From assembly GCA_013824325.1 (NCBI GenBank), contig PNNP01000003.1:1-35257 (forward strand): a stretch of DNA of 35,257 nucleotides, read 5' to 3'. Every line of letters begins with the position of its first letter. Position 1 is the stretch's first letter. The position numbers and the translations under genes were made by a program. This document shows positions 2,912-30,428 of the stretch, in pieces. A model generated the notes under the pieces. That model was given only the letters and a program-made list of their open reading frames with translations, had not been told where the DNA came from and made no database searches. This stretch comes from Thermodesulfovibrio sp. GTDB taxonomy: Bacteria; Nitrospirota; Thermodesulfovibrionia; Thermodesulfovibrionales; Dissulfurispiraceae.

Positions 2912-3108
2912 CATAGATCCTCCATAAAAATCACTTTGCAACCTCACGCCATCCATTTGTCCTTTCTTTTATCTTTAAAATTATCTCTATTCGCATGAAC
3001 AATTTATACCAGAGGATTTAAGTATTGTCAAGAATTTTAAAATAAAAAAAGTTTTAGTGTGATCATATCTGCTGCGAGTTATATTCTTTGAGTGTGGTAT
3101 CATTTAAT

Positions 3109-3561
3109 ATGACCTTTGAAGTGCTGGATATATCAGGCGACATTGGAATTAAGGCATCGGGAAAAACCTGTGAGGAAGCCTTTGTGAATGCAGGCATGGG
3201 AATGTATAGCCTGATAACGGATATTGGAAAGATTAAAGATGAAAAGCGTATGGAAATAGAAGTTAAGGCAGATTCGCCTGAAAGCCTGCTTGTTCGCTAT
3301 CTTAATGAACTGATATTTCAGTTTGATGCTTATGGTTTTATCGGAAGGGGGATTAAGATCTTAGATTTAAGATTGATGATTTCTAATTTAAAAACTGAAA
3401 TCTCCAATCAGCAATCCTCAATTAAACTAAAAGTATTTGGTGAGGAATTTGATTCAGACAGGCATGAGCAAGGATTACTCGTAAAAGCTGCCACATATCA
3501 CAACATCAAAATTGAAAAGAGAAATGATGAATGTATAATCGAGGTCATATTTGATATATAA
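3109..3561 (+). CDS. Archease (RtcB cofactor protein)
   Basis: DISGDIGIKASGKTCEEAFVNAGMGMYSLITD...ESLLVRYLNELIFQFD...KAATYHNIKIEK...: archease family pattern; directly upstream of rtcB. Track ORF starts at TTG 3088; ATG 3109 preferred. Confidence 0.88.
   Translation: MTFEVLDISGDIGIKASGKTCEEAFVNAGMGMYSLITDIGKIKDEKRMEIEVKADSPESLLVRYLNELIFQFDAYGFIGRGIKILDLRLMISNLKTEISNQQSSIKLKVFGEEFDSDRHEQGLLVKAATYHNIKIEKRNDECIIEVIFDI
3361..3422. repeat. Inverted pair of AATC-type heptanucleotide arrays inside archease
   Basis: Right arm CTGAAAT CTCCAAT CAGCAAT CCTCAAT (3395-3422). Left arm on the opposite strand reads AAATTAG AAATCAT CAATCTT AAATCTA. Confidence 0.75.
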
Positions 3562-3572
3562 GGAGGTGAAGT

Positions 3573-5018
3573 ATGTCGCTTGAAAAGCTTAAAAGAATAG
3601 ATGAAAACAGACTTGAAGTCCCGAAAGACTATAAAGAAGGCATGAGGACGAACGGCATTATATATGTTGACAGTATTCTGGAAAAAGAACTTGAATCAGG
3701 CTCTATTGAGCAGGTTGCAAATGTTGCCACACTTCCGGGCATTGTCGGCGCTTCAATGGCAATGCCTGATGTGCATACTGGTTACGGTTTTCCGATTGGC
3801 GGCGTTGCCGCATTTGATTTAAAAGAAGGAATCATATCCCCTGGCGGAGTCGGCTATGACATAAACTGCGGAGTAAGACTTTTAAGAAGCAATCTCAAAA
3901 AATCTTTTGTGCTTCTTAGAATAAAAGAGCTTATTGATGTTTTGTATAACAATATACCATCAGGTGTCGGTTCAAAAGGGAAAATCAGGCTCGGTCCGGA
4001 TGATGAAGAAAAAGTGCTTTTAAAAGGGGCGCGGTGGGCTGTTGATAAGGGATTTGGTGATGCATCAGACCTTGAGAGGATTGAATCAGGCGGATGTATG
4101 GATGGAGCAGACCCGTCTATAATAAGCAGTAAGGCTTATGAAAGGGGAAGGGCGCAGCAGGGCACGCTCGGCTCAGGCAACCATTTTCTCGAGGTTCAGT
4201 ATGTTGATGAGATTTACGATGAAAAGACTGCAAATGCACTCGGTCTTTTTAAAGACCATATAACAGTGATGATACACACAGGCTCAAGGGGATTTGGACA
4301 TCAGGTATGCACGGATTTTCTTGAGGTCATGAGCAGGGCTGTCCGGAAATATGGTATTGTTCTGCCTGACAGGGAGCTTGCCTGCGCTCCGTTTAACAGC
4401 TCTGAGGCAAAAGATTATTTTGCTTCAATGAAAGCTGCTGCCAACTATGCATGGGCTAACAGACAGTGTCTCATGCACTGGACGCGTGAGGTTTTTATGT
4501 CGGTGTTTAAAATACCGCCTTCTGAATTAGGACTGACGCTTATTTATGATGTTGCGCATAACATAGCAAAGATAGAAGAGCATATCGTCAACGGACAGAA
4601 GAAAAAATTGGTAGTTCACAGAAAAGGCAGCACAAGGGCTTTTCCGCCGGGACATCCTGAGCTTCCTGCAGTATACAAGAATCTCGGACAGCCGGTGCTC
4701 ATACCCGGAGATATGGGCAGGGCTTCTTTTGTGCTTATCGGAACAGAAAAGGCTATGAAGGAAACATTCGGCTCCACATGTCATGGAGCAGGCAGGGTAA
4801 TGTCAAGACATCAGGCAATCAGACAGGCAAAGGGCCGTGCTATCTGGCGTGAAATGGAAGATATGGGAATCATTGTCAGGGCTGCAGGGAGGGAAACACT
4901 CGCTGAAGAGATGTCAGAGGCGTATAAGGATATATCAAATGTAGTTGATGTTGTGCACAATGCAGGGATTTCAAAAAAGGTTGCAAAGCTCAAGCCCATA
5001 GGTGTTATAAAAGGATAA
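3573..5018 (+). CDS. rtcB: RNA-splicing ligase RtcB
   Basis: MPDVHTGYGFPIGGVAAFD, GGVGYDINCGVR, GTLGSGNHFLEVQ, IHTGSRGFGHQVC, DVAHNIAKIEEH, HRKGSTRAFPPGH, GSTCHGAGRVMSR. Confidence 0.97.
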   Translation: MSLEKLKRIDENRLEVPKDYKEGMRTNGIIYVDSILEKELESGSIEQVANVATLPGIVGASMAMPDVHTGYGFPIGGVAAFDLKEGIISPGGVGYDINCGVRLLRSNLKKSFVLLRIKELIDVLYNNIPSGVGSKGKIRLGPDDEEKVLLKGARWAVDKGFGDASDLERIESGGCMDGADPSIISSKAYERGRAQQGTLGSGNHFLEVQYVDEIYDEKTANALGLFKDHITVMIHTGSRGFGHQVCTDFLEVMSRAVRKYGIVLPDRELACAPFNSSEAKDYFASMKAAANYAWANRQCLMHWTREVFMSVFKIPPSELGLTLIYDVAHNIAKIEEHIVNGQKKKLVVHRKGSTRAFPPGHPELPAVYKNLGQPVLIPGDMGRASFVLIGTEKAMKETFGSTCHGAGRVMSRHQAIRQAKGRAIWREMEDMGIIVRAAGRETLAEEMSEAYKDISNVVDVVHNAGISKKVAKLKPIGVIKG

Positions 5019-8935: not shown

Positions 8936-10708
8936 GTGTTTGATGCCACAGCATACAGATGGCTTGTAAACAAGACCAATCCCGAGTATGTCAATTACAT
9001 TTCAAAAATCGCCTCTGTATCTTTGCCGTTTGCACAGGTATTGATTAACAGAGGCATAAAAACATCTGACCATCTCGATACCTTTCTCAATCCGCATATT
9101 GACAGGCTTTCAGACCCCTTTGAACTGCCCGGCATTATAACTGCGATAGACAGGATAAAAGAGGCAAAAAGGCAGGGCGAAAGGGTTCTTGTACACGGAG
9201 ATTATGATGCAGACGGCGTTACTGCAACAGCAATTATAGTTGAAGCATTGAGAGAAATAGGTATTGACGTGCACTATTTTGTACCCGACAGGATTTCACA
9301 TGGTTACGGTTTTGGTGAAGCAGGCATTGAAAAGGCAAAGGAAATAGGGGCAAAACTAATTATAACAGTGGATTGCGGAATCACATCCTTTGATGCTGTC
9401 TCCACTGCCAGTTCACTTGGAATAGACACGATAATCACCGACCATCATGAACCACGTAGAGTTCAGAGTTTGGAGTTTGGAGTTCAGAGTGAAGGGAAAT
9501 CTGAATTTCTGCTGCCGGAAGCGATTGCGGTTATTAATCCAAAACTGTTGGGCAACTCATTACCCATCACTCATAACTTATCACAGCTTTCCGGTGCAGG
9601 TGTTGCATTTAAGGTTGCACTCGGATTATTTGAAAACCGCATTGATTATGTGTATAAACTGTTAGACCTTGCTGCAATAGGCACAGGCGCTGATGTTGTC
9701 CCCGTGATTGGCGACAACAGGATTATCATCAGGGAAGGGATTAAATTAATCCAGTCAGGCGAGAGGGCAGGCATCAGGGCATTGAAGGAAGTATCAGGCA
9801 TAAGGCAGGATTTTTTTAAGACGTCTTTTCTATATTACATGCTGATTCCGAGGATAAACGCGGCAGGAAGGATGGCAAACGCTACCGATGTAGTGAAGCT
9901 TTTAACAACAAAATCCGATATAGAGGCAGAAGAACTCGCAAAATGGCTCAATGATTTGAACTCAAAGAGGCAGGAGACAGAGGAATCGGTCTGCAATGAG
10001 GCTCTTGAGATGCTGAATTCAATGAATAACGACAGAGGGGCTATTGTCATTGCATCAGAAGGGTGGCATCCCGGCGTAGTCGGCATAGTGGCTTCAAGGA
10101 TTGCCGAAAAATACTATAAACCTGCATTTGTTTTTACTGTAAAAGACGGCGTGGCTAAAGGCTCTGCAAGGAGCATCCCCGCGTTTGATATTTATTACGG
10201 ACTTACACAGTGCAGGGATATTCTTAAAAGATTCGGCGGACATAAACAGGCTGCAGGCCTTAGTCTTTTGTCAAGCGATATGGATAAATTCAGTGAAATG
10301 ATTTCAGGTATTGTTCTGAATACGCTTTCAGATGATGACTTTGTGCCTGTTTTGAATATTGATGCTGCTGTCAGCATTTCGGATGTCAGCATTGAACTTA
10401 TTAATGAAATTGCAAAACTTGAACCTTTTGGATACGGCAATGAAGAGCCGCTGTTCGGCGCCAGAGGGCTTGAGGCAATAAATCCGAGAATCGTTGGCAA
10501 TAACAATAATCACCTCAAGATGCATCTCAGGCAGAACGGCAGGAGCATTGACACCATAGGGTTTGATTTCGGCAGTTTGCTGCAGATTATTAAAGAAGGC
10601 AATTTGTTTGATGCCGCGTTTCTTCCAATAATAAATGAATGGGACGGCGGAAGATATGTGCAGTTGAATTTAAGAGCGATAAGACCGGCAACAGTCAACA
10701 ATCAATAG
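8936..10708 (+). CDS. recJ: Single-stranded-DNA-specific exonuclease RecJ
   Basis: VHGDYDADGVTATAI, ITVDCGITSFD, TDHHEP, PRINAAGRM, GWHPGVVGIVASRI, RFGGHKQAAGLSL: DHH/DHHA1 motifs. GTG start. Confidence 0.96.
   Translation: MFDATAYRWLVNKTNPEYVNYISKIASVSLPFAQVLINRGIKTSDHLDTFLNPHIDRLSDPFELPGIITAIDRIKEAKRQGERVLVHGDYDADGVTATAIIVEALREIGIDVHYFVPDRISHGYGFGEAGIEKAKEIGAKLIITVDCGITSFDAVSTASSLGIDTIITDHHEPRRVQSLEFGVQSEGKSEFLLPEAIAVINPKLLGNSLPITHNLSQLSGAGVAFKVALGLFENRIDYVYKLLDLAAIGTGADVVPVIGDNRIIIREGIKLIQSGERAGIRALKEVSGIRQDFFKTSFLYYMLIPRINAAGRMANATDVVKLLTTKSDIEAEELAKWLNDLNSKRQETEESVCNEALEMLNSMNNDRGAIVIASEGWHPGVVGIVASRIAEKYYKPAFVFTVKDGVAKGSARSIPAFDIYYGLTQCRDILKRFGGHKQAAGLSLLSSDMDKFSEMISGIVLNTLSDDDFVPVLNIDAAVSISDVSIELINEIAKLEPFGYGNEEPLFGARGLEAINPRIVGNNNNHLKMHLRQNGRSIDTIGFDFGSLLQIIKEGNLFDAAFLPIINEWDGGRYVQLNLRAIRPATVNNQ
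9458..9492 (+). repeat. Heptanucleotide array (AGAGTTC type) inside recJ
   Basis: AGAGTTC AGAGTTT GGAGTTT GGAGTTC AGAGTGA. Confidence 0.88.
9555..9582 (+). repeat. Heptanucleotide array (CATCACT type) inside recJ
   Basis: ACTCATT ACCCATC ACTCATA ACTTATC. Confidence 0.8.
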
Positions 10709-11742: not shown

Positions 11743-12783
11743 ATGATAGAAATAGACGGAAGCTATGGAGAAGGAGGGGGGCAGATACTACGGACAGCCC
11801 TGAGTCTTTCATGCCTGCTTAAAAAACCATTCAGGATATTCAACATCAGACGGTCAAGAAAAAAACCCGGACTCATGCCCCAGCATCTCACTGCTGTAAG
11901 GGCAGCACAAATCATATCCAATGCGGAAGCAATCGGCGGTTACACAGGTTCAACAGAGCTCATATTTTCACCGCGAGATGTTAAGAGCGGAGATTTTTTC
12001 TTTGACATCGGCACAGCCGGCTCAACGTCACTGGTTCTTCAGACACTAATCCCATCACTTATTTTTTTAGGAGATAAATCTTCAATAATCCTGAAAGGAG
12101 GTACGCATGTCCCGTTCAGCCCGTCATTTGACTATATCAAATGGGTTTTTGCACCTGCTTTAGAAAAAATGGGAGTAGAAATAAGGCTTTCAATAGAGTC
12201 GTACGGTTTTTATCCGAAGGGAGGTGGAAAGATAATAGCTGAAATTTTTCCGATAAAGGAAATTAAACCCCTGAGGATTACAGAGAGAGGCAGGATTCTT
12301 AAATTAAAGGGTTATTCCGGAACTGGCAATCTCCCGCTCTCAATTGCAGAAAGACAGCGAGATTCAATGAAAGAAAAGCTGCATCCTGTTTTGGAAAGCA
12401 TTAAATGTCCTGTGGATATAGAGATTCTCAGTGCTTCAACTCCGGGGCAGGGGACATTTATATTTCTTCAGTCAGAATCGGAGAACTCCATTGCAGGTTT
12501 TGCATCCCCCGGCGAAAGAGGCAAAAGGGCAGAGGTTGTAGGAGAACAAGCAGCAGCAGAATTCCTGCAATACTATTCTTCAAATGCTGCATTTGACTCT
12601 CATCTGTCTGACCAGATAGTTTTATATCTCTCGATGTGTAAAGACGAATCCATATTTACTACATCATGCATAACAGGACACCTGATGACGAATCTCTGGG
12701 TTATAAGTCAATTTCATAAATTTGATTATACTGTTGAAGAAGAGATTGGAAAGCCGGGAAGAGTAAAACAAAAAAAGTCTTGA
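11743..12783 (+). CDS. rtcA: RNA 3'-terminal phosphate cyclase RtcA
   Basis: MIEIDGSYGEGGGQILRTALSLSCLLKKPFRIFNIRRSRKKPGLMPQHLTAVRAA, DIGTAGSTSLVLQTL, GGTHVPFSPSFDY, YGFYPKGGGKI, DSHLSDQIVLYL. Confidence 0.97.
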   Translation: MIEIDGSYGEGGGQILRTALSLSCLLKKPFRIFNIRRSRKKPGLMPQHLTAVRAAQIISNAEAIGGYTGSTELIFSPRDVKSGDFFFDIGTAGSTSLVLQTLIPSLIFLGDKSSIILKGGTHVPFSPSFDYIKWVFAPALEKMGVEIRLSIESYGFYPKGGGKIIAEIFPIKEIKPLRITERGRILKLKGYSGTGNLPLSIAERQRDSMKEKLHPVLESIKCPVDIEILSASTPGQGTFIFLQSESENSIAGFASPGERGKRAEVVGEQAAAEFLQYYSSNAAFDSHLSDQIVLYLSMCKDESIFTTSCITGHLMTNLWVISQFHKFDYTVEEEIGKPGRVKQKKS

Positions 12784-16048: not shown

Positions 16049-16318
16049 TTGAAACAAATTACAATTAGGAGTATTCCGAATGAAATCGAAAAGATAGTAA
16101 AAAAAGAGGCCAGTGAGAAAGGATTAAGTCTTAACAAGGCATTTATTTCGTTGCTTGAAAGGGGAAGTGTCGTCAAGGCTATTAAGAAAAGAAAGACTCT
16201 GTATCATGATTTAGATCATCTTTCCGGAATATGGTCAGATGAAGAGGCAGCAAGATTTAATAGTATCCTTGAAATGCAGCGAAAAATAGACGAGGATTTA
16301 TGGAAGAAAAAAGGATAA
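16049..16318 (+). CDS. Ribbon-helix-helix-type antitoxin (VapB/FitA-like)
   Basis: MKQITIRSIPNEIEKIVKKEASEKGLSLNKAFISLLERG: RHH N-terminus; overlaps the downstream PIN gene. Confidence 0.8.
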   Translation: MKQITIRSIPNEIEKIVKKEASEKGLSLNKAFISLLERGSVVKAIKKRKTLYHDLDHLSGIWSDEEAARFNSILEMQRKIDEDLWKKKG

Positions 16319-16707
16319 TGCTTGACACATCTGCATATTCTGCTTTTCTCAGAGGAAATGCTGAAATTAAATCATCATTGCAACAAGCAAGTGAGATATT
16401 TCTTAATCCAGTCATACTCGGTGAGTTGTTAGCCGGGTTTTTAATGGGGAAGAGAGAAAAGAAAAACAGAACTGTACTTCAGGAATTCCTTTCTTCTTCA
16501 AGAGTTAAGGTTGTTGAGATTGATGAGGAGACATCAGAAAGGTATGCGGTTATTATAAACTATCTGCGCAAAGAAGGAATACCAATCCCTACCAATGATT
16601 TATGGATATCAGCCTCTGCCATGCAATATGGTTTAAAGGTTTTAACTACCGACAGCCACTACCTGAAGGTGCCCCAGATAATAACCGAATATTATCTGGC
16701 GGACTAA
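16300..16707 (+). CDS. PIN-domain toxin (VapC family)
   Basis: MLDTSAYSAFLRGN, NPVILGELLAGF, IPIPTNDLWISASAMQYGLKVLTTDSHYLKVP: PIN acidic residues. Start probably ATG 16318 (IMLDTS...). Confidence 0.9.
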   Translation: MEEKRIMLDTSAYSAFLRGNAEIKSSLQQASEIFLNPVILGELLAGFLMGKREKKNRTVLQEFLSSSRVKVVEIDEETSERYAVIINYLRKEGIPIPTNDLWISASAMQYGLKVLTTDSHYLKVPQIITEYYLAD

Positions 16708-16850: not shown

Positions 16851-18407
16851 ATGAAGGTTGTAACTTCAGATGAGATGCGGGAGATTGACAGGGTTACTAT
16901 TGAGAAGTATGGCATCCCAGGCCCTGTTCTGATGGAAAGATCTGGACTTGCTGTTGCCTTGAGGGTAAAAGAACTTTACTCATCAAAAAAAGTTGTTGTT
17001 CTATGCGGCAGCGGCAACAATGGAGGAGACGGGCTTGTTGCTGCAAGAAATCTTCATAACATGGGTTTCAGGGTAAATATTTTAATCTTTGCTCCAAAAG
17101 ATGCCTTGAGTCCTGATTGCAAAGCTCAGTATGAAATAGCAAAAAAAATTGGTGTCCCTGTTGAATTCAGGAAGGGTATTAATAGAAGGGATATACATGG
17201 TTCGGTTGTGATTGATGCTGTTTTCGGTACAGGACTCAGCAGAATAGTTACAGGGGAGATTGCAAAGATATTTACATTGCTTAACAATTCGGATACGCAT
17301 GTCATTTCTGTGGACATTCCATCCGGCATATCATCAGATACAGGAAAAATCTTGGGACAAGCTATAAAAGCTGACTTTACTATAACATTCGGATTGCCAA
17401 AAAGAGGACATTATCTCTATCCGGGTGCAGAATATACAGGTAAACTTTTTGTTGAAGACATTGGATTTCCTGACGGACTTTTAAGTTCAAATAAAATAAA
17501 AGTAGATTTGATTGAAAAGGAGTTCATAACAGGCTTAATTCCTCAGAGACCTAAATATTCCCACAAAGGCGATTATGGTCATGTCCTCGTAGTAGCAGGC
17601 TCAAAGGGCAAAACCGGCGCTGCCCTGATGACTGCAAAGGCATGCATGAGAAGCGGTGCCGGACTTGTAACCATTGGTGTTCCGGAATCATTGATGAATG
17701 TTTTTCAGCGCAGGGTTACTGAGGAAATGACCCTGCCGTTACCTGATGACGGCAGAGGTATGTTATCAGCAAATTCAATAAACACAATACTGGACTTTGC
17801 ATCAAAGAAAGCTGATGTTGTTGCTGTAGGACCCGGCATCGGTGTTTCATCAGATACAGAAAAAATTGTCGTTGAGCTTGTAAAGAAATCACCTTTGCCA
17901 ATAGTCATAGATGCAGACGGAATAAATTGTTTAAAAGGAAGAAGGAGTGTTTTGAAGAATGCAAAGTCACCTGTAATTTTGACTCCTCATCCCGGGGAAA
18001 TGGCAAGGCTCTTAAGCCAGAAGTCAGGAGATAGAAGTCAGAAGTCAGAAGTCGAACTGCGTAAAGAAATAGAGCAGGACAGGATTAATATGGCTGTTTC
18101 GTTTGCAAAAGGGACAGGAACTTATGTAGTTTTAAAGGGAGTGCCTACAATTGTTTCTGTTCCTGAAGGCAATGCATACATTAACACTACCGGCAATCCG
18201 GGAATGGCTACTGCCGGCTCAGGGGATGTCTTAACAGGCATAATCGCTTCTTTAATGGGACAGGGATTAAATCCTGTGGATGCATCCATTCTCGGTGTTT
18301 ATCTTCATGGACTTGCAGGTGACATTGCAGCAAAGAAAAAGGGGGAACATTCTTTGATTGCATCGGATATTATTAATTCCCTGCCTGCTGCCTTTTCCGA
18401 CATATAG
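16851..18407 (+). CDS. nnr: Bifunctional NAD(P)H-hydrate epimerase / ADP-dependent NAD(P)H-hydrate dehydratase
   Basis: MKVVTSDEMREIDRVTIEKYGIPGPVLMERSG, CGSGNNGGDGLVAARNL, DIPSGISSDTG; C-terminal VVAGSKGKTGAALMTAKACMRSGAGLVT, LTPHPGEMARLL, NTTGNPGMATAGSGDVLTGIIASLMGQG. Confidence 0.96.
   Translation: MKVVTSDEMREIDRVTIEKYGIPGPVLMERSGLAVALRVKELYSSKKVVVLCGSGNNGGDGLVAARNLHNMGFRVNILIFAPKDALSPDCKAQYEIAKKIGVPVEFRKGINRRDIHGSVVIDAVFGTGLSRIVTGEIAKIFTLLNNSDTHVISVDIPSGISSDTGKILGQAIKADFTITFGLPKRGHYLYPGAEYTGKLFVEDIGFPDGLLSSNKIKVDLIEKEFITGLIPQRPKYSHKGDYGHVLVVAGSKGKTGAALMTAKACMRSGAGLVTIGVPESLMNVFQRRVTEEMTLPLPDDGRGMLSANSINTILDFASKKADVVAVGPGIGVSSDTEKIVVELVKKSPLPIVIDADGINCLKGRRSVLKNAKSPVILTPHPGEMARLLSQKSGDRSQKSEVELRKEIEQDRINMAVSFAKGTGTYVVLKGVPTIVSVPEGNAYINTTGNPGMATAGSGDVLTGIIASLMGQGLNPVDASILGVYLHGLAGDIAAKKKGEHSLIASDIINSLPAAFSDI
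18019..18053 (+). repeat. Heptanucleotide array (AGAAGTC type) inside nnr
   Basis: AGAAGTC AGGAGAT AGAAGTC AGAAGTC AGAAGTC. Confidence 0.9.
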
Positions 18408-23257: not shown

Positions 23258-24037
23258 ATGACAGTAGAATTAAAAGATAGCATAAAAACATTGCTCGAAT
23301 TTTATGGAGCATTCGGTTTTGAAAGTCTGCCTTTAAAATACAGTGATGGGTTATCAGTAATGAGTAATGAGTTCAAGGAATTTAGAAAATCTGAAAACAC
23401 ATCACTCGTCACGCATCACTCATTACATGAGAAACAGGCGGCTCTGAATGAACTGCGTGAAGAAATAGACAAGTGTCAGAGGTGCAGACTTTCAAAGGAC
23501 AGAAAAAACATTGTTTTTGGCGAAGGCAATATCAATGCAAGGATAATGTTTATAGGAGAGGCACCCGGCAGGGAAGAGGACGAGCAGGGCAGACCTTTTG
23601 TCGGAGATGCCGGACAGATTTTGACAAGCCTTATCAATAAAATGGGCGAAGGCAGAGGTTTTATGAGAAAGGATGTTTATATCGCAAATATCGCAAAATG
23701 CAGGCCGCCGATGAACCGTGACCCGCAGGATAACGAGATAAAAACCTGCCTCCCTTTCCTCAATAAACAGATTGAAATCATATCTCCAATGGTTATAATA
23801 GCTCTGGGCAGGGTCTCAGCACATACACTTTTAGGAATATCAGTGCCCCTTGCTAAATTCTCAATTACCAGAGTCAGGGGAAGATTTTACGAATATGAAG
23901 CAGGCGGGAGGATTATCCCTGTTATGCCGACATTCCATCCTGCATATTTTCTCAGGAATCCGAAGGACAAGTATTTAACATGGGACGATGCTCAGGCTGT
24001 TCTGAAAAAAATAGATTCGATGGAGGGTACGCCATGA
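23258..24037 (+). CDS. Type 4 uracil-DNA glycosylase
   Basis: [78 protein letters not shown]: family 4 UDG with FeS cysteines. Confidence 0.95.
23342..23427. repeat. Inverted pair of AGTAATG/CATCACT heptanucleotide arrays inside udg4
   Basis: Left AGTGATG GGTTATC AGTAATG AGTAATG AGTTCAA (23342-23376); right CATCACT CGTCACG CATCACT CATTACA (23400-23427). Confidence 0.85.
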
Positions 24038-25130: not shown

Positions 25131-25165
25131 GATGGGGCTCCCCGGAAATTTTGCGGGAATTGGAA

Positions 25166-25687
25166 ATGAAAGTCCTTGGGATTGACCCCGGAAGCATATA
25201 CTGCGGATATGGGCTTATCCGGATTTTAGATTCCAATCTAAAATCTGAAATCAAAAATCAGCAATACAAATATCTTTCATCGGGCAGGATTGTCATGCCT
25301 GCTGCAAAACCGCTTTGCATAAGACTCAGGGAGCTTTTCACTTCTCTTATGGATGTGATTGGGGAGTATGAGCCTGATGAAGTTGCAACAGAGAAGATTT
25401 TTTTTGCAAAGGGCATAAAAGCTGCTTTAACCATGGGACATACGAGGGGGGTAGTTCTTCTCGCAGCAACCATGAGGGATATCCCGATTTATGAATACAG
25501 TGCCCTTGAGGTCAAGAAGGCTGTAGTAGGCTATGGCAGGGCTGATAAGAATCAGGTTCAGAAAATGGTCGGAGAGATATTAAAGATTAATCACACACTG
25601 TCTTCTGACAGTGCGGATGCTCTGGCTCTTGCACTTTGCCATGCAAATATAAAAAAGATGAAGCTAAAAGCGGAAAAAGGGAGTTGA
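25166..25687 (+). CDS. ruvC: Crossover junction endodeoxyribonuclease RuvC
   Basis: MKVLGIDPGSIYCGYGLI, ATEKIFFAKGIKAALTMGHTRGVVLLAA, YSALEVKKAVVGYGRADKNQVQKMV, DSADALALALCH. Confidence 0.96.
   Translation: MKVLGIDPGSIYCGYGLIRILDSNLKSEIKNQQYKYLSSGRIVMPAAKPLCIRLRELFTSLMDVIGEYEPDEVATEKIFFAKGIKAALTMGHTRGVVLLAATMRDIPIYEYSALEVKKAVVGYGRADKNQVQKMVGEILKINHTLSSDSADALALALCHANIKKMKLKAEKGS
25233..25267 (+). repeat. Heptanucleotide array (AAATCNN type) inside ruvC
   Basis: CCAATCT AAAATCT GAAATCA AAAATCA GCAATAC; preceded by TTTAGATT, inverted to AATCTAAA (arms separated by CC). Confidence 0.8.
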
Positions 25688-29341: not shown

Positions 29342-30428
29342 CTTCAATTTTGATTTTCCAAAAGAATTGATAGCATTAAGACCTGCCGGAAATAGAGACC
29401 ACTCAAGACTTCTTGTACTTCACAGAAGCGGTGATATCGAGCACAAGAAATTCTTCGATATCCATGAATATCTGAAAAAAGGAGATATGCTTTTACTTAA
29501 TGATACAAAGGTATTCCCTGCAAGGATTATCAGCACAAAGCCTTCCGGCGGAAAGATTGACATCCTGCTTGTCAGAAAAACAGATGACAACGGCACATGG
29601 GAGATAATGTGCAGGAGCAGATTTCAGGGGAAGGTAAATATCGGAGACGACATCACAGCAGAGATATGGACAGAGAAAAGTTCCGAGTTTCAAGTTCCGG
29701 GTTCCGGGTCAAAGTACCGAAGAGGTATTGAACAATCCTGCAGGGCCAGAAAGTTTATGCGTTTTTTGAATGTAAAACATTCGAGTATTGATGATGTTCT
29801 CTGGCATCGCGGGTATATGCCTTTGCCGCCATATATAAATAGACTGCCTGATGGTGAAGACAGGGAAAGATACCAGACGGTCTTTGCTGAAAAACATGGC
29901 TCTATAGCTGCTCCTACCGCAGGGCTTCATTTTACAGAAGAGCTTTTAAGTAAAATAGCCGATAATGGAGTGATGGTTCGGAAACTGACACTGCATATAG
30001 GCACCGGTACATTTAAGCCTATTAAAACAGAATTTCTTGAAAAACACAGTATGGATTCAGAATACTTTGAGATGAAGACCTCCCTGATAGAAGAGATACA
30101 GCGTACAAAAGAGTCAGGGCACAGACTAATAACCGTTGGCACAACTGCTACAAGGGCAATCGAGGGCTTTATGGGCGGAAGATACACCGAATCACCTGTC
30201 ATTACTAAAAACGGCGCCATTAAAGGATTTACGGATATCTTTATTTATCCGGGATATGAATTCAAAGCAGTTGACAGTCTGATAACAAATTTTCATCTTC
30301 CGCATTCAACGCCTTTGATGCTCGTTTCTGCATTCAGCAGTTTTGAAATGATACTAAAAGCTTATGAGGAAGCTGTTGCCATGGGTTATAGATTTTTCTC
30401 CTATGGTGATGCTATGCTGATTTTGTGA
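29328..30428 (+). CDS. queA: S-adenosylmethionine:tRNA ribosyltransferase-isomerase QueA
   Basis: FDFPKELIALRPAGNRDHSRLLVLHR, LLLNDTKVFPARI, YMPLPPYINR...DRERYQTVFAEKHGSIAAPTAGLHFTEELL, NFHLPHSTPLMLVSAF. Confidence 0.97.
   Translation: MKTADFNFDFPKELIALRPAGNRDHSRLLVLHRSGDIEHKKFFDIHEYLKKGDMLLLNDTKVFPARIISTKPSGGKIDILLVRKTDDNGTWEIMCRSRFQGKVNIGDDITAEIWTEKSSEFQVPGSGSKYRRGIEQSCRARKFMRFLNVKHSSIDDVLWHRGYMPLPPYINRLPDGEDRERYQTVFAEKHGSIAAPTAGLHFTEELLSKIADNGVMVRKLTLHIGTGTFKPIKTEFLEKHSMDSEYFEMKTSLIEEIQRTKESGHRLITVGTTATRAIEGFMGGRYTESPVITKNGAIKGFTDIFIYPGYEFKAVDSLITNFHLPHSTPLMLVSAFSSFEMILKAYEEAVAMGYRFFSYGDAMLIL
29679..29713 (+). repeat. Heptanucleotide array (AGTTCCG type) inside queA
   Basis: AGTTCCG AGTTTCA AGTTCCG GGTTCCG GGTCAAA. 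Confidence 0.85.

Follow-up and report, generated by a model that had tools for sequence, protein, structure and literature searches.

The window, the whole stretch of DNA analysed here (35,257 nucleotides), is contig C3 of a 1.245-Mb assembly, a 66.6% complete MAG whose nearest named relatives are Thermodesulfovibrionales of the Nitrospirota. On its forward strand lie an archease gene (3088-3561; Pfam PF01951, E 1.2e-37), which adjoins rtcB, and ruvC (25151-25687; PF02075). Both genes are intact, and both host short repeats built of seven-base units. The archease and rtcB genes together span 3088-5018, and an rtcA-like RNA 3'-phosphate cyclase ORF is found 7 kb off (11743-12783). These genes appear to be a compact RNA-repair neighbourhood, with names assigned by reading the sequence and, in the case of archease, by a Pfam check. 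Two small genes at 16049-16707 resemble a VapBC-type toxin-antitoxin pair, the second protein being PIN-like, as judged from the ORFs.

The archease peptide ISNLKTEISNQQSS (encoded at 3379-3420) and the RuvC peptide DSNLKSEIKNQQYK (25229-25270) are underlain by a direct repeat of 35 nt with 83% identity (3381-3415 and 25231-25265), and the DNA beneath the shared peptide consists of heptads of the form AATCNNN. This bears out the first-pass annotation, which had traced a peptide common to the two proteins to AATC heptads; the archease span that it gave (3361-3422) takes in both repeat arms, and its RuvC span (25233-25267) is in the right place but a few bases short. The two sites are one type of element, composed of a GATT arm, a loop and an AATC arm. 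In archease the inverted heptad element occupies 3364-3416 of the forward strand, with the GATT arm at 3364-3381 and the AATC arm at 3385-3416, and is read through in frame as DLRLMISNLKTEISNQQS. In ruvC it occupies 25222-25265 of the same strand, where the arms GATTTTAGATT-CC-AATCTAAAATC pair perfectly over 11 bp around a 2-nt loop (25222-25245), followed by more AATC units, and the read-through is ILDSNLKSEIKNQQ. An inverted arm preceding the AATC arm had been recognized in archease, but RuvC has one too, better preserved than that of archease. Besides this RuvC arm, the first-pass annotation did not include the other unit families of the window, the genome-wide scale of the repeats or the swapping of repeats between species at one site.

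The peptide had been expected to recur elsewhere in the genome on the same DNA repeat, and it does. A six-frame search of this genome for NLK.EI.N-like peptides identified three further genes in which each match lies on AATC heptads, encoding LeuRS (SINLKSEIKNPQSE, also given as DSINLKSEIKNPQSEI), a CbiX-CbiC fusion (NSKSEISNLKSQI, also given as NNSKSEISNLKSQI) and CobB/CbiA (NNLKSQITNHKS). The pattern AATCNNAAATCNNAAATC has 18 matches in the 1.245-Mb assembly, compared with 0 for the reversed control. The peptide is not conserved in archease and RuvC of relatives and is missing from solved structures of both proteins. Alignments indicate that most relatives lack the archease insert, the loop being for the most part a short turn in them. 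There is good support for reading the peptide as a tolerated insertion of repeat DNA, and its sharing by archease and RuvC is probably a by-product of the DNA.

It had also been proposed that the array is read in the same frame in the two genes. The shared register is real, but since 7 is coprime to 3, a perfect heptad array encodes one and the same heptapeptide whichever of a strand's three frames is read, and these frames are either all stop-free or all closed. In the five genes with NLKSEI-like peptides, the NNN in codon phase is AAA, TCC, TCA or ACA and never a stop, and the other two phases contain TAA or TGA in 6 of 10 units. The peptide and the register therefore recur in these genes because stop codons are excluded from a common array. 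Orientation is filtered likewise. Among coding arrays that are stop-free on one strand only, the stop-free strand is the sense strand in 22 of 25 cases here (22:3) and in 31 of 38 in relatives (31:7), or 53 sense against 10 antisense combined. Gain or loss of a single heptad unit shifts the frame.

Both peptides had been predicted to sit at a beta-hairpin connection. For RuvC, this placement is confirmed by an AlphaFold2 model (pLDDT 91.8) in which residues 12-20 and 34-43 form strands and the insert falls in residues 21-33, the beta-hairpin loop. The acids D7, E76, D148 and D151 (numbered from the ATG at 25166), which we take to be catalytic given their roles known from E. coli RuvC, are intact. 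For archease the placement rests on alignments, according to which the insert seems to sit in a loop or turn; a single-sequence AlphaFold model of this protein had a pLDDT of 44 and was discarded. The archease of an order-level relative (G035, locus L044) has another long insert, GRPAGRHTGEPESGQADKPAGLQ, at this turn, not clearly heptad-built, and the turn therefore seems generally permissive. The suggestion that the fold tolerates insertion at such a place is supported.

The coding elements of the window are heptad-built, about 30-90 bp long and drawn from many unit families. In recJ, on the forward strand, there are two, a GAGTTTGG/GAGTTCA-type array at 9454-9497 (peptide RRVQSLEFGVQSEG), where the loop of relatives has AGGCAAT-type heptads, and a CTCATTAC/CCATCAC-type array at 9554-9585 (peptide NSLPITHNLSQ), where the loop of the relative G012 is of AATC type and reads ISNLKSQISNL. 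Three more genes carry elements on this strand. An AGAAGTC array is found in an NnrD/NnrE fusion gene (18014-18063; peptide SQKSGDRSQKSEVELR), and an inverted pair, AGTAATG ... CATCACT, in a uracil-DNA glycosylase (UDG) superfamily gene (23342-23427), the corresponding loop of relatives being variable and holding other heptads. In queA, a GTTCCGG/GTTCCGA array (29678-29711) encodes SEFQVPGSGSKYRRG, and relatives are short at this position or have another heptad (TSQESRVRSQRSKK). Compared with shuffles, the folding z-scores are -2.7 for the RuvC element, -3.2 for the UDG hairpin, -1.9 for archease and 0.0 for the RecJ region. RNA structure as a common feature was rejected, because the RecJ region folds no better than shuffles.

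The RuvC loop has 11-13 residues in several relatives and is a short empty turn in others, and its heptads differ among at least seven lineages. These are AATCTAA in this genome, CAGTCAG in G012, five copies of CAGAAGT in G017 and G045, an inverted AGATT/AATCT pair (AGATTNN) in G010, an inverted AGTTAAA/AACTCTT pair in G036, AGCGGTT in L162 and AGTCAAN in L163. Alignments of the UDG, QueA and RecJ loops reveal similar swapping. Among four congeneric species with about 78-89% nucleotide identity there are sites where the repeat is kept, sites where its copy number has changed and sites occupied by another unit family. For example, between congeners of about 80% nucleotide identity, one RecJ site has CCTATTG units in one genome and ACTCTGG units in the other. 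Copy-number differences lie near multiples of 7, as in a 14-nt gap in QueA. Repeat families are thus exchanged in place.

Repeats of this period occur throughout the genome. In a sample of 400 kb (20 stretches of 20 kb from 20 other contigs, with ORF-based gene calls) and with an array threshold of at least 16/21 self-matches, the density of arrays per 100 kb is 11.8 at lag 7, 5.0 at lag 14 and at most 1.5 at the other lags from 4 to 17, and a Markov shuffle yielded no lag-7 array. A period of 7, with its multiple 14, is the sole strongly over-represented repeat period. At a looser threshold, 73 arrays were identified in 435 kb, the window included, and 45 of the 73 are wholly within called genes, compared with 65 expected from random placement. 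Most arrays are coding, yet fewer lie in genes than chance would place there, a depletion consistent with purifying selection. An inverted partner (13/16, within 120 nt) accompanies 13 of the 73 arrays and 2 controls, so a hairpin partner for every array is unsupported. Where AATC-family arms are paired in this genome, the GATT arm precedes the AATC arm in 12 cases and follows it in none, with a loop of 2-24 nt. Within one 1425-codon ORF (L090:15668-17905) there are six distinct heptad arrays, which represent several unit families.

The unit skeleton in this genome is ANTCNNA (reverse complement TNNGANT), with an information content of 4.72 bits against a maximum of 3.55. A.TC is present in 53 of 103 arrays, which are overlapping runs and not independent elements, compared with 26.6 in shuffles; GAGT-type units are also present. 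One consensus heptad for all genomes was rejected, as the pooled motif is weak (4.36 versus about 3.5 bits). Tandem arrays at different sites share identical units in 31 pairs within genomes or groups (1.5 in shuffles) and in 42 pairs between genomes or groups (5.2 in shuffles).

The distribution across genomes is patchy. Three tandem copies of AGAAGTC occur in 47 of 396 Nitrospirota genomes, compared with 3 for the reversed control. Stretches of 40-100 kb from four close relatives (G007, G013, G028 and G037) contain no heptad arrays, whereas their siblings have 10-30 per 100 kb, so gain or loss of the trait is rapid. Three genomes of Methylomirabilota (NC10) have 42-59 matches to the AATC pattern and none to its reverse. 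At NC10 loci picked for AATC matches, the GATT-before-AATC order holds 12:3, and GC content falls to 39% in the arms, within DNA of 67% GC. That such an AT-rich unit retains its skeleton against a GC-rich background argues against an origin by slippage of local sequence. Two NC10 genomes (67% GC) share a near-identical inverted heptad hairpin of 73 nt (GATTTTCGATTGGTGATTGCCGATTTGAAAATCGAAAATCC...; L296:2544-2616 and L298:8337-8409), with arms of about 38% GC.

The reading that we consider likely is dispersed copying of heptad hairpins combined with exchange in place, archease and RuvC each holding one AATC copy. The genome has many short, degenerate seven-base arrays, often as inverted pairs that form hairpins, and we hypothesize that copies enter or replace DNA at many sites. 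Preformed arms would be copied to new sites, probably by hairpin-driven template switching or strand annealing at forks or breaks, and we infer that this proceeds without a dedicated mobility enzyme. Afterwards, 7-nt slippage could alter copy number, and repeats could replace one another in place. Within genes, the survivors would be copies in tolerant loops or beta-hairpin turns, with a net length that is in frame and a sense strand that lacks stops; purifying selection would keep such in-frame, stop-free copies in permissive loops.

Slippage might instead act alone, with 7-nt polymerase steps expanding chance duplications in situ and no dispersal of preformed units. Contact of the polymerase with about 7 nt has been proposed as the reason why heptamers are favoured (Mrazek 2007, cited by PMC4679880 and PMC4692102), and the copy numbers of congeners do differ near multiples of 7, the QueA gap being an example. 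Some arrays would be accounted for by such expansion of chance seeds. As the only process, slippage is unlikely, given that the same units turn up in other genera and at sites not linked to one another, that AT-rich AATC arms persist inside 67% GC genomes and that inverted arms have a fixed order; moreover, a change of one unit shifts the frame and is poorly tolerated in genes. We give an equally low probability to a non-autonomous MITE- or RPE-like element moved by a transposase encoded elsewhere. The repeats are dispersed, inverted, in frame in unrelated genes and patchy between genomes, as are Rickettsia palindromic elements, but they have neither conserved termini nor a fixed length, and their unit families are many. 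A REP-type transposase (Y1_Tnp, PF01797) was rejected as the mover since the assembly has no match to it, a weak argument at 66.6% completeness.

Selection on the RNA, through mRNA folding, termination or regulation and with the peptide as a cost, is improbable to a greater degree. The RuvC (z -2.7) and UDG (z -3.2) elements fold better than shuffles, and heptad repeats elsewhere have been proposed to be regulatory, yet archease (z -1.9) and RecJ (z 0.0) do not follow them, the positions are in mid-gene, and unit families are swapped between congeners. Hardly credible is a functional protein motif, for instance a shared binding loop, selected in both archease and RuvC. It would account for the identical residues in two proteins, but most homologues lack the peptide, relatives have repeat peptides of unrelated sequence in that loop, cobalamin enzymes and LeuRS also carry it, and arrays lie between genes as well.

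The heptad hairpins explain at the level of DNA why certain peptides (NLKSEIKNQ, RSQKSEV, LVTHHSL and others like them) recur in proteins of uncultured bacteria, where one might take them for motifs or signs of homology. They further illustrate how non-coding DNA can enter core enzymes without destroying them, and comparison of filled and empty sites makes the question of why seven bases are used testable. More speculatively, a very small replicating DNA form that has no enzyme of its own (or an unknown one) and obeys the grammar (GANTNNN)n - loop - (NNNANTC)n could be common to Nitrospirota, Methylomirabilota and cyanobacteria, where it would refill, again and again, the same permissive loops in housekeeping proteins and structured RNAs; we regard this as possible but doubtful. 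If true, this grammar-defined form would be a general source of variation in loop length and loop sequence.

In a partial coverage of the literature, we found no publication that describes heptad hairpins inserted repeatedly and in frame into loops encoded by core genes of Nitrospirota or NC10. Heptamer repeats in general are a recognized, little-studied and poorly explained class, which includes the STRR of Calothrix. In the P6b stem of the trnL intron of Nostoc and Calothrix, Class I (TDNGATT) and Class II (NNTGAGT) heptads have been swapped in place in independent lineages (PMC4476775). As here, inverted degenerate heptad arrays form the Nostoc stem, the Class I skeleton is TNNGATT / AATCNNA, and length varies; unlike here, P6b is a loop of a group I intron RNA in cyanobacteria and not part of proteins. 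The elements that we examined are located within protein-coding genes or between genes, not in a tRNA-Leu group I intron. The heptameric SSRs GGGNATC of Xanthomonas and GGGGA(T/C)T of Nostoc (PMC4692102) are likewise dispersed, include some inverted pairs and vary between relatives in length and sequence, but they are G-rich and strongly non-coding, have one dominant unit per genome and have no reported coding-loop pattern.

Elements of four or five heptanucleotides in Geobacter metallireducens (Gmet_H4, GGACCGG; class 3 sites, MTYCTGA; PMC2700814) resemble ours in being multi-copy heptads within and between genes. In contrast to ours, they have few unit types and were read as regulatory or as regulator binding sites, coding effects not being analysed there. 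The TAACTGA direct repeats of Beggiatoaceae (PMC4679880) are also dispersed heptad arrays, patchy across phyla and occasionally inside ORFs, but consist of one unit without an ANTC core and mostly precede start codons. When rotations and both strands are considered, ANTC/GANT is contained in Xanthomonas GGGAATC, Nostoc GGGGATT/GGGGACT, TDNGATT, NNTGAGT, Helicobacter GTGATTA and Geobacter MTYCTGA, and is lacking in TAACTGA and GGGACCG. Its presence in several published heptamers is suggestive only.

Rickettsia palindromic elements (RPEs; Ogata 2000, 2002, cited by PMC10969869) and PARCELs (PMC2996958) are also palindromic DNA read in frame that gives shared peptides in unrelated proteins, as we find for archease, RuvC, LeuRS, CbiX-CbiC and CobB. 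They are not built of heptads; the RPEs are conserved families of about 150 bp, and PARCELs encode tandem domains of 25 residues in ORFs of unassigned function. We judge the heptad hairpins described here to be a coding variant of the known, poorly explained heptamer repeat class, one that connects three subjects hitherto discussed separately, namely coding palindromes, cyanobacterial heptamer repeats and the Nostoc intron stem.
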